Source: Treponema sp. (GTDB lineage: Bacteria; Spirochaetota; Spirochaetia; Treponematales; Treponemataceae). From it: a stretch of DNA of 64,000 nt. The position numbers were made by a program, and so were the translations under genes. The notes beneath the pieces are model-generated. The model saw only the letters and a program-made list of their open reading frames with translations. It did not search any database and was not told the origin of the DNA. Positions 1 through 3,458 of this stretch are shown here, piece after piece. Location of the stretch: the NCBI GenBank assembly GCA_014803985.1, contig JAAVAO010000006.1, positions 3,469-67,468 on the forward strand. The letters run 5' to 3'. Positions within the stretch are counted from its first letter, which is position 1. Every line of letters begins with the position of its first letter.

Positions 1-630
1 ACGAACGTCACGCTCGATGGAAGAAAAGAAAAAGTCACCGCAAGCGGAGCGCTTTTGGATATCGACGGCTCGACCACGATTGTAACGCTCGGTGACGGTG
101 CGACCGTATGCAATAACAAAAAAATTCTACAGGGGAGCGGAAGCGGTGTTCATATAGGAGACGGCACATTTAAAATGATAGGCGGGACGGTCACTGGAAA
201 CGAGGGACTTCGAGGTTACGGACTAGGCGTTTATATAAACGACAATGCTACATTCGAGATGAGCGGTGGTAAAATAAGTGGAAACAGCGAGAACTATTCC
301 AATGGAGGCGGTGTCTATGACAGAGGCACGTTCATAATGAGCGGAGGTGAAATCAGCGGCAACAAAGTTGGAAGTGGCGGTGGCGTGTACGTTAATGGAA
401 GCAACAGCTATTTCACCATGAGCGGCGGCAAAATCACTGGCAACACCGCGACTACAAGTGGCGGCGGTGTGTATCTCGTTAATAGCAGCACGTTCACCAT
501 GGAAGCCGGCACGATTTCCAGCAACACCGCGACTACAAGTGGCGGCGGTGTGTATGTCGTTAATAGCAGCACGTTCACCATGAAAGTCGGCACAGTCAGC
601 GGCAATTCGCCCGATAACGTTCACCAATAA
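1..630 (+). CDS. C-terminal part of a repetitive surface/beta-helix-like protein (GGGVY-x-TMSGGxIxGN repeats), truncated by window start
   Basis: Frame is open from base 1; repeated motif 'GGGVYVxNSSTFTMxxGxxSxN'; near-identical ~60-bp DNA repeats around 460-590. Confidence 0.7.
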   Translation, partial: TNVTLDGRKEKVTASGALLDIDGSTTIVTLGDGATVCNNKKILQGSGSGVHIGDGTFKMIGGTVTGNEGLRGYGLGVYINDNATFEMSGGKISGNSENYSNGGGVYDRGTFIMSGGEISGNKVGSGGGVYVNGSNSYFTMSGGKITGNTATTSGGGVYLVNSSTFTMEAGTISSNTATTSGGGVYVVNSSTFTMKVGTVSGNSPDNVHQ

Positions 631-723
631 CTTGACGCACCAGTGGCACGGTGCAAGAGGATTAGAGGGCTAGAGTTTGTTCCTAGCGAAACAAACTCTC
701 CGAATATCGTAACGATTTTTTGC

Positions 724-752
724 TTGCAAAAAAATGAAAAAAGGTGTATCTT
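724..752 (+). promoter_or_regulatory. Promoter of short convergent RNA, copy 1
   Basis: TTGCAA - 17 bp - TATCTT; the same arrangement is conserved in copy 2. Confidence 0.5.
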
Positions 753-758
753 ACATAA

Positions 759-845
759 AGAGCGTCCGTTAGTATACGGGCTGTCTCCACTTCTTTAGTT
801 AAAAAGCCGCCAAAGTAAGGGCATCACGGGCGGCTTTTTTTTCTA
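759..845 (+). ncRNA. Candidate antitoxin RNA, copy 1, convergent with the toxin mRNA and sharing a bidirectional terminator
   Basis: Promoter at 724-752, no ORF, hairpin aaaaagccgcc...gggcggcttttttt at 801-842; sequence duplicated at 1142-1228. Confidence 0.5.
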
Positions 846-938
846 CTCTTTTCTTTCTTTTAGAAAGGTGAGAAGCGATATAATAGTTTCAATTATAGTG
901 GCGATACAAATTACCACGCTGATAATTGTTTCCATCAT
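843..938 (-). CDS. Small hydrophobic peptide MMETIISVVICIATIIETIISLLTFLKERKE, candidate type I toxin (holin-like/TxpA-Fst-like)
   Basis: Read directly from the minus strand: RBS 'gggagg' upstream of ATGATG, one hydrophobic helix, charged KERKE tail, followed immediately by a GC-rich hairpin with T-tract; absent from the supplied ORF track because of its size. Confidence 0.65.
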   Translation of the reverse strand: MMETIISVVICIATIIETIISLLTFLKERKE

Positions 939-1017
939 ATCGAGCCTCCCTTCATCATTTATTCAGGCAAAGCCTGTAGAGTTCGGGAGACAGCCGCCAA
1001 CCAACGGACGCACTATT

Positions 1018-1046
1018 ATTGTATAGTACATCCGATATAACGTCAA
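1018..1046 (-). promoter_or_regulatory. Sigma70-type promoter for the small hydrophobic peptide mRNA
   Basis: Minus strand TTGACG - 17 bp - TACAAT, predicted start about 1011. Confidence 0.6.
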
Positions 1047-1106
1047 GTAATTTGTATTGTGTTCTTTTGTATGCGCAGAAAGTAGAAGTGAAGTGCAAAT
1101 TTTTGC

Positions 1107-1135
1107 TTGCAAAAAATTGAAAAAAGGTGTATCTT
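1107..1135 (+). promoter_or_regulatory. Promoter of short RNA, copy 2
   Basis: TTGCAA - 17 bp - TATCTT. Confidence 0.45.
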
Positions 1136-1141
1136 ACATAA

Positions 1142-1228
1142 AGAGCGTCCGTTAGTATACGGGCTGTCTCCACGTTTTTGACTTAAAAAGCCGCCAACGT
1201 GTAGTCAGTACGGGCGGCTTTTTTTCTA
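1142..1228 (+). ncRNA. Candidate orphan antitoxin RNA, copy 2
   Basis: Near-identical duplicate of 759-845, including the gcgtccgttagtatacgggctgtctcc leader and the terminator, while the facing toxin ORF is decayed. Confidence 0.45.
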
Positions 1229-1276
1229 CTCTTTTCTTTCTTTTAGGAAATCAAGTGCCGCAAGTCTTCCGTTTTA

Positions 1277-1412: not shown

Positions 1413-3458
1413 TCACTTCAAATATACCATCAAAAGCATTATGTCGCTCGTGCGAATTCCGCTAATTCTTGCGGCTTGTCCCAAAGTGATGGGGCGCACC
1501 TTTTCCAACTTTGTACGACTTTCCGCAGAAAGAGAGGGAATTGCACCGTAATCAAATGCAAGCGGAATTTTCACATTTTCCATTCTATGCATTTTTTCAA
1601 CGCGTTTATCCTGTTTCTCAATGTAATATTTATATTTTAGATCGATTTTTGCCGCCTCCCATATTTTTTCAGGATAACCGGGATTTTCCGCATTTGGGTT
1701 CTTTAAAAGAAAGGCGACAATTTCATCAAGCAGAGCGTATTTTTCTTCAACACGCGCCAACTGTTCTTTTGTTTTCAAGCCCACCTCAAACGCATACCGA
1801 GAAAGTCGGCGGTCGGCGGTGTCGTGGCGAAGTTTCAAGCGATATTCAGCGCGGGCGGTGAACATTCTATAAGGCTCTTTAGTTCCAAGTGTTACAAGAT
1901 CATCTATTAAAACGCCAATATACGCCTCGTCACGCCCTAAAATAAGCGGCTTGTAATCAGGAATTGTATCAAAGGCTGAAAAACCGCCTTGTGTTTGTGC
2001 AATTTTTTCAATTTCATTCAAACGAATGCAGTTTTTTTCGCTCTCAAAATAAAAGAACGCCCGCTCTTCGTTTGTCATTTCCGCTTTTGGAGAAAAACAC
2101 CCTTTTTCACCACTTGAAACAAGTCCGTTCACATCGCTTGGAAGACGGCAAAGCGGTCCGCATAATGCAATGTGAGATTTTGCATACAGCCCTGCATTTA
2201 TTCCAGCGACAAGCCCTTGCCCCGCAGCCTCTTCATATCCTGAAGTGCCGTTTATTTGACCGGCATTAAAAAGCCCCGCAACCCGTTTTGTTTCAAGAGA
2301 TGGGAAAAGTTGCGTTGGTTCAACATAATCATATTCAACTGCATAGCCAGGACGAGACTGCACCGCATTTTCAAATCCTCTCATAGTCCGCATAAAAGCA
2401 TCTTGCACGCTTTCGGGAAGAGATGATGAAAGCCCGTTTAAATAAATTTCATCGGTTTCAAGACCTTCTGGTTCGACAAAAATCTGATGTCTTTCCCTTT
2501 CGGCAAAACGCATAACCTTGTCTTCAATCGACGGGCAATATCTCGGACCTGTTCCACTGATTTTTCCTGAAAAAAGCGGAGAACGATTTATATTCTCACG
2601 GATAATTCTGTGCGTTTCGCTATTTGTATACACAATATGACAAGGCACTAGAGGTCGTTCAATTTTTTCTGTTTCAAAACTAAAGGGTGAAGCCTCTTCA
2701 TCTCCATCGTTCAATTCAAGGAGTGAAAAATCCACTGTGCGGCGTAAAATTCGCGGAGGAGTTCCTGTTTTTAATCTTCCCGTTGTAAAACCTAACTTTT
2801 GCAAACTTGCTGTAAGTCCAAACGCTGCCGCCTCCCCAAGCCGTCCACAGGGAGCATCGTACTCGCCAATAAAAATCCGCCCCCCTAAAAACGTTCCTGT
2901 AGTAAGAACAACTGCTCGAACTGAAATAATGCGTCCGCGCTCCGTTGCAATTCCCGTGATTTTTCTGCGCATTTTTTCATTGGAAGCCCCTCTCTGCTCT
3001 CCAGGAATAGTGCCGCTTTCTGCGCGGCTATCGGAATCTGGCGGAAGGGGGGTGGTAGAAGGAGTGGTAAAAATGTCAACAACAGTGTCCATGAGGGTGT
3101 AGAGATTTTCCGTGGTTTCAAGGGTTTTTCGTGCAAGCCCTGAATACGTTATCTTATCGGCTTGACTTCGTGGTGCTTGAACGGCAGGACCGCGGCTTTT
3201 ATTCAACATACGAAATTGAATCATCGACTTGTCTATAAGGCGAGCCATTTCTCCGCCTAAAGCGTCTATTTCGCGCACTATATTTCCCTTTGCAATTCCG
3301 CCTATTGAGGGGTTACAACTCATTCGCCCGATAGCGTCAATGCTCTGGGTAATCACAATGGTTTTTAATCCCATTCGCGCACACGCAAGAGATGCTTCAA
3401 TCCCGGCATGCCCTGCTCCTACTACCGCCACATCAAAAAAATCATAAAATCCTGCCAT
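1413..3458 (-). CDS. mnmG: tRNA uridine-5-carboxymethylaminomethyl modification enzyme MnmG (GidA)
   Basis: FDVAVVGAGHAGIEASLACARMG and GGEMARLIDKSMIQFRMLNKSRGPAVQAPRSQAD motifs, full-length. Confidence 0.95.
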   Translation of the reverse strand: MAGFYDFFDVAVVGAGHAGIEASLACARMGLKTIVITQSIDAIGRMSCNPSIGGIAKGNIVREIDALGGEMARLIDKSMIQFRMLNKSRGPAVQAPRSQADKITYSGLARKTLETTENLYTLMDTVVDIFTTPSTTPLPPDSDSRAESGTIPGEQRGASNEKMRRKITGIATERGRIISVRAVVLTTGTFLGGRIFIGEYDAPCGRLGEAAAFGLTASLQKLGFTTGRLKTGTPPRILRRTVDFSLLELNDGDEEASPFSFETEKIERPLVPCHIVYTNSETHRIIRENINRSPLFSGKISGTGPRYCPSIEDKVMRFAERERHQIFVEPEGLETDEIYLNGLSSSLPESVQDAFMRTMRGFENAVQSRPGYAVEYDYVEPTQLFPSLETKRVAGLFNAGQINGTSGYEEAAGQGLVAGINAGLYAKSHIALCGPLCRLPSDVNGLVSSGEKGCFSPKAEMTNEERAFFYFESEKNCIRLNEIEKIAQTQGGFSAFDTIPDYKPLILGRDEAYIGVLIDDLVTLGTKEPYRMFTARAEYRLKLRHDTADRRLSRYAFEVGLKTKEQLARVEEKYALLDEIVAFLLKNPNAENPGYPEKIWEAAKIDLKYKYYIEKQDKRVEKMHRMENVKIPLAFDYGAIPSLSAESRTKLEKVRPITLGQAARISGIRTSDIMLLMVYLK

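Follow-up and report, generated by a model that had tools for sequence, protein, structure and literature searches.

A candidate type I toxin-antitoxin module with a conserved facing RNA in Treponema, described by comparative sequence analysis

The 64,000-nucleotide stretch of Treponema sp. DNA analysed here (the window) carries a convergent pair of small genes which is very probably a chromosomal type I toxin-antitoxin module; this is the best explanation of its anatomy and evolution, from which we infer its function. A sequence-only reading of the window had already proposed a toxin/antitoxin pair at this place. Comparison with relatives lends strong support to that proposal through a conserved two-gene unit, coding selection and a closed ribosome-binding site, and adds a conserved antisense RNA structure, a second peptide weakly resembling Hol_Tox, and solo antitoxins without the converse. 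According to a 2025 paper, no phyla other than Proteobacteria, Firmicutes and Tenericutes had yielded type I toxin-antitoxins until its own cyanobacterial case (PMC12390103), and we found none in spirochetes in the literature searched. Judged by its sequence, the module very probably belongs to a new family of RNA-controlled toxin-antitoxins, with no counterpart in that literature either by sequence or by phylum. If it is of type I, it would open up a further phylum; the RNA model, which has 140 copies in a single genus, can be used for searches. Its solo antitoxins and swapped toxins amount to a natural experiment on the origin and decay of such systems, and a 5' element that has the same orientation in the two RNAs is a testable puzzle.

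On the minus strand, the toxin promoter TTGACG-17-TACAAT (1018..1046) is followed by an mRNA leader of about 72 nt (939..1011), which consists of a 5' element (about 1011-985, its 3' end being CTGTCTCCC), an internal hairpin and the Shine-Dalgarno sequence GGGAGG (945-950; CCTCCC on the plus strand). The putative toxin ORF (843-938, minus strand) has 31 codons and encodes a hydrophobic peptide, MMETIISVVICIATIIETIISLLTFLKERKE, of what we call family A; with a 19-aa Kyte-Doolittle mean of 2.62, it falls among small proteins (<60 aa) with one membrane helix. Facing it on the plus strand, the promoter TTGCAA-17-TATCTT (724..752) precedes an ORF-less antitoxin RNA of about 83 nt (about 759-841), which comprises, in order, a 5' hairpin, CTGTCTCCAC and the terminator. 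This terminator is a two-way hairpin common to both RNAs (801..839; stem 801-811/829-839, 11 pairs, with T-runs flanking on both sides), and constitutes their 3' overlap. Both RNAs fold better than their dinucleotide shuffles, with z -3.2 for the toxin mRNA and z -2.5 for the antitoxin RNA. All the parts that the sequence-only reading had named on either strand are present, its estimate for the facing RNA having been about 85 nt; beyond these we observed a second RNA gene (1100-1226), two further modules in the same genome and the same-sense 5' element of both RNAs.

That reading had also suggested a tblastn search of the genus genomes, which finds the peptide in 43 of 200. A profile search extends family A to other genera of the same family and to one genome assigned to another family (G259). 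The named records carrying it are from Treponema or from Spirochaetaceae/Spirochaetales/Spirochaetia and are nearly all metagenome assemblies, mostly from animal guts where a source is named; Treponema sp. C6A8 also carries the peptide. The arrangement hardly varies among 74 non-redundant loci. The promoter is followed by the GGAAATGCC hairpin, GTCTCCC, a hairpin, GGGAGG, ATG, the peptide and the GCCGCC terminator, beyond which the opposite strand carries the antitoxin and a promoter for it. The family A consensus is MTxExxIAVVTCVATVIxTVIAxLSYLKxK. Purifying selection on the peptide is evident from 26 non-overlapping pairs (pS 0.25, pN 0.060, pooled dN/dS 0.21), which hold 145 synonymous and 113 non-synonymous substitutions against a neutral expectation of about 3.3 non-synonymous per synonymous; we read this ratio and these counts to mean that the peptide is translated. 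The promoters, recognised by their sequence, also keep a -10-like hexamer (>=5/6) in relatives: just upstream of the toxin RNA start it is found in 80% of 61 relatives (32% in shuffles), and on the antitoxin strand in 79% of 67 (29% in shuffles). The anatomy of the locus is thus beyond chance, given the unit conserved at more than 70 non-redundant loci, compensatory pairing, dN/dS and the promoter hexamers.

Searches for known relatives of the peptide returned little. The window peptide matches no toxin family in Pfam and NCBIfam, and none of 27 family A members matches Fst or Ldr there at E<=10. PADLOC defence profiles gave no match, and the solved-structure search yielded two matches only, both weak and unrelated. 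No relatives were found among the phages, plasmids and viral contigs searched, which gives no support to a location on a phage or plasmid. Two further observations were made in passing. The G259 modules (L038 and L056) closely resemble those of genus g1, and one of their peptides is the same in sequence as that of L008 of G080, the DNA differing by synonymous changes only; either transfer or contamination of the assembled genome could account for this. At seven loci (L019, L065, L081, L083, L086, L092, L096), unrelated or repeat sequence stands in place of the toxin promoter and 5' element while the ORF and antitoxin are kept, and these toxins are perhaps silenced.

The facing RNA has a conserved structure of its own. 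A plain MAFFT alignment with RNAalifold showed little beyond the terminator, because the length of the hairpin loop varies; folding of single heads together with a hand-placed structure resolved the 5' hairpin. It has the form GGA.AUG.CCGA-loop-UCGG.YRU.UCC or a near variant, and folds in the heads of 67 relatives with a median z of -2.8. Both-side changes were seen in 10 of the 19 pairs of the 5' hairpin and terminator. Compensatory cells numbered 43 against 8.9 +- 2.8 in shuffles (0/500 reached this number), and 88% of cells were pairing, against at most 57% in slid controls. R1, a covariance model of the facing RNA built from the hand-placed 5' hairpin and terminator structure, matches the window RNA with E 1.1e-5 and detects 140 RNAs in 61 of 196 genus genomes; in a sample of the phylum, 17 of 393 genomes have matches, mainly within the same family. 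Rfam contains no corresponding family. The RNA itself is predicted; it is complementary to the toxin mRNA over the terminator, and its structure and promoter motif are conserved.

The toxin mRNA is predicted to be translationally shut by its own structure. In the 61 loci with a placeable RNA start, the Shine-Dalgarno sequence is nearly always predicted to pair with the leader's own CUCCC, the predicted median accessibility being 0.0 for the Shine-Dalgarno sequence and 0.02 for the AUG. With CUCCC folded in this way, the full-length mRNA would be silent until processed or refolded. It would be closed even if the antisense RNA were absent, which is a point against the type I reading. Closed leaders that open on processing are described for type I toxin mRNAs such as tisB and zorO (PMC7708055; PMC11264685).

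Transcription, RNA pairing, toxicity and neutralisation would then proceed as follows. The minus-strand mRNA would encode a single-helix membrane peptide with a basic tail. The facing RNA, with its own promoter, a conserved 5' hairpin cap and full complementarity to the mRNA over the terminator, probably begins to pair at the terminator loops and thereby eliminates the mRNA or keeps it locked. Decay of the duplex by RNase III is favoured by a slight balance of probability and is somewhat likelier than direct blocking of the ribosome site. Should the RNA become scarce, the peptide would enter the membrane and growth would stop. Repression within a type I system could instead act mainly by blocking translation directly, in a par-like manner, with the CUCC of the antitoxin (which equals the closing element of the mRNA) binding the Shine-Dalgarno sequence in trans. 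We consider this a serious but distinctly less probable course. CUCC is found in nearly every antitoxin and GGAGG in nearly every toxin, and the GUUAG subfamily allows about 9 pairs to form. However, this predicted pairing was not above composition-shuffled controls, cognate partners paired no better than non-cognate ones in the same genome, and the UCC of the antitoxin is already paired in its own 5' hairpin. Since the CUCC pairing does not exceed controls, the terminator overlap is the only certain complementarity.

The 5' elements of the two genes are inverted in the DNA, and the toxin mRNA and antitoxin RNA therefore start alike, in the same sense, with GCGTCCGTT....CGGCTGTCTCC. In genomes with several modules, and with an extraction rule that admits a few doubtful elements, a toxin element is closer to that of its own partner than to those of others (7.64 vs 7.37 +- 0.07 of 10 positions, 0/5000 shuffles); either joint gene conversion or joint constraint could give rise to this likeness. 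A tentative reading, less likely than not, is that the antitoxin frame (5' hairpin, CUCC and terminator) is specific to spirochetes and carries interchangeable membrane toxins. On this reading the same-sense 5' element would serve in recognition or decay, its two copies in a module would evolve jointly, and it would act by mimicry rather than by 5' complementarity. To our knowledge, such 5'-element mimicry has not been described for type I systems.

The module is present at two more places in the source genome (three in total), each with a facing RNA, and the peptides of these copies are 97% and 81% identical to that of the window. At E <= 1e-4, R1 finds five antitoxin RNAs in this genome, three opposite toxins and two solo, one of the latter in the window (1142-1221) and the other on contig C10. 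The solo gene in the window, identified by its R1 match, has a promoter, the RNA and a terminator on the plus strand (1100..1226) and adjoins a toxin remnant on the minus strand, FLKERKE* (1228..1252), which was recognised by sequence and by repeat comparison. Since these are the last codons of the toxin, the solo gene is a module that lost its toxin.

All three modules adjoin genes for repeat-rich GGGVY..TFTMSGG (beta-helix-like) proteins (window 1-630; L002 1-1430; L003 about 1926-3370, minus), the one in the window being the upstream neighbour, which ends at 630. The resemblance between C3 and C10 starts at the end of the beta-helix gene and runs on from there, so this end was probably duplicated along with the module. 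At 673-719 the window has a hairpin, GAGTTTGTT-cctagcg-AACAAACTC, followed by ATCGTaACGATTTTTT; the C10 copy has the hairpin too, and it is likely the terminator pair of the beta-helix gene. On the other side, between the solo antitoxin and a minus-strand gene (1413-3458) that we read from its translation as encoding an MnmG-like protein, a GC-rich palindromic stretch at 1257-1360 (GCGGGGTGTCCCCGC.., GGGGGAGACTTCCCCC) looks like a dispersed repeat.

The fate of the toxin was followed at 78 RNA matches lying mostly away from the family A set. At 34 of these the RNA faces an ORF with a Shine-Dalgarno sequence and a membrane segment, many of which form a second family, B (MTIYEIISLAINLAILILTALSYLKDRKS). 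At least 22 have no membrane ORF, and half of those retain the 3' tail of the toxin; the ORF lacks a Shine-Dalgarno sequence at a further 17, although L203 and L205, at the least, seem to be intact. In the other direction, an RNA match accompanies 82 of 85 family A toxin loci. The three others are a locus at a contig end (L018), one whose 3' side is rearranged (L026) and one whose head is recognisable by eye (L076). Such one-way decay, with the toxin lost and the RNA kept, would be expected if the peptide were costly without the RNA. A precedent for solo antitoxins is provided by the 'orz-only' loci in E. coli (PMC11264685).

The sole Pfam match of family B is Hol_Tox (PF16935, a putative holin-like toxin), found for 12 of 19 members with a best E of 5.6e-5, the scores shown lying just below the gathering score (21.4 vs 23.3 bits). 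The window peptide has no match to PF16935 at E<=10, and family A gave one match among 27 members (E 1.8). Comparison of the two family profiles returned a probability of 93%, which for peptides so short and hydrophobic is only suggestive of kinship. Tandem modules about 350-400 bases apart were observed at L183, L009, L014, L063, L066, L077, L188, L191 and L196, some of these arrays placing family A beside family B toxins. At L208, L195, L200 and L034 the same RNA frame holds yet another form of the peptide, MTLEYVLVAAAIISCIASVIGTVYAALTYHKKK and related ones, whose N-terminal part is longer. At L175, L143, L171, L179, L210, L212 and L213, a small palindromic repeat (..GCGAGTTTT...AAAACTCGGTAAGCAAGC...GCTTGCGACC.. 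or a variant of it) takes the place of a large part of the toxin ORF opposite an intact antitoxin. This may be an element that spreads and inserts itself in silenced toxins.

Among the single-helix peptides of bacteria there are many regulators, and toxicity here is something that we infer; the window peptide also bears a weak likeness to the NCBIfam 'small membrane protein' NF033853 (E 0.0066, below the threshold). The product could accordingly be a small membrane protein that is regulatory and not toxic, with an antisense RNA controlling its translation and with a role other than growth arrest. We regard this as unlikely, since the module is scattered over the genus (43/200 genomes) and has several copies, which often stand in tandem with other toxin sequences, since the coding part has repeatedly been lost while the RNA was kept, and since the sister peptide resembles Hol_Tox. 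That the locus is a spreading MITE- or REP-like repeat with an incidental ORF, as several copies per genome, inverted terminal similarity and solo partial copies might suggest, is very improbable in view of the dN/dS of 0.21, the conserved Shine-Dalgarno sequence and start, the promoters conserved on both strands and the lack of a common target-site pattern.

A type I toxin-antitoxin module being our preferred explanation, we compared it with characterised systems. The sequence-only reading had likened it to par/Fst and txpA/RatA; the geometry bears this out, but the absence of a family match and the same-sense 5' repeats indicate that it is a member of neither. Like par of pAD1, it has a single-helix peptide with a charged tail, convergent RNAs, a two-way terminator and an RNA overlap that stops short of the coding region (PMC4147584). 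In par, however, the two RNAs are complementary near the toxin start by virtue of the direct repeats DRa/DRb, which block ribosome binding (PMC4147584), whereas the 5' repeats of this module lie in inverted orientation in the DNA and the RNAs have the same sequence. The Fst/Ldr family is marked by a P/D/S/TxxxG motif and usually a tryptophan (PMC8147318); the family A alignment has neither a conserved Trp nor xxxG. The txpA/RatA pair of Bacillus subtilis is likewise convergent with a 3' overlap, and duplex decay has been proposed for it (PMC4147584), but its toxin has 59 aa and its overlap is about 75 nt, as against 31 aa and about 40 nt here; the window peptide has no Pfam match and Rfam gave no RatA match. 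Hol_Tox resembles family B, which sits in the same RNA frame, and differs in that the window (family A) peptide does not match it. The zorO/orzO and zorP/orzP pairs of E. coli are not convergent and have no common terminator. Their likeness to the module lies in tandem copies, a processing-dependent ribosome-binding site and solo antitoxin loci (PMC11264685).
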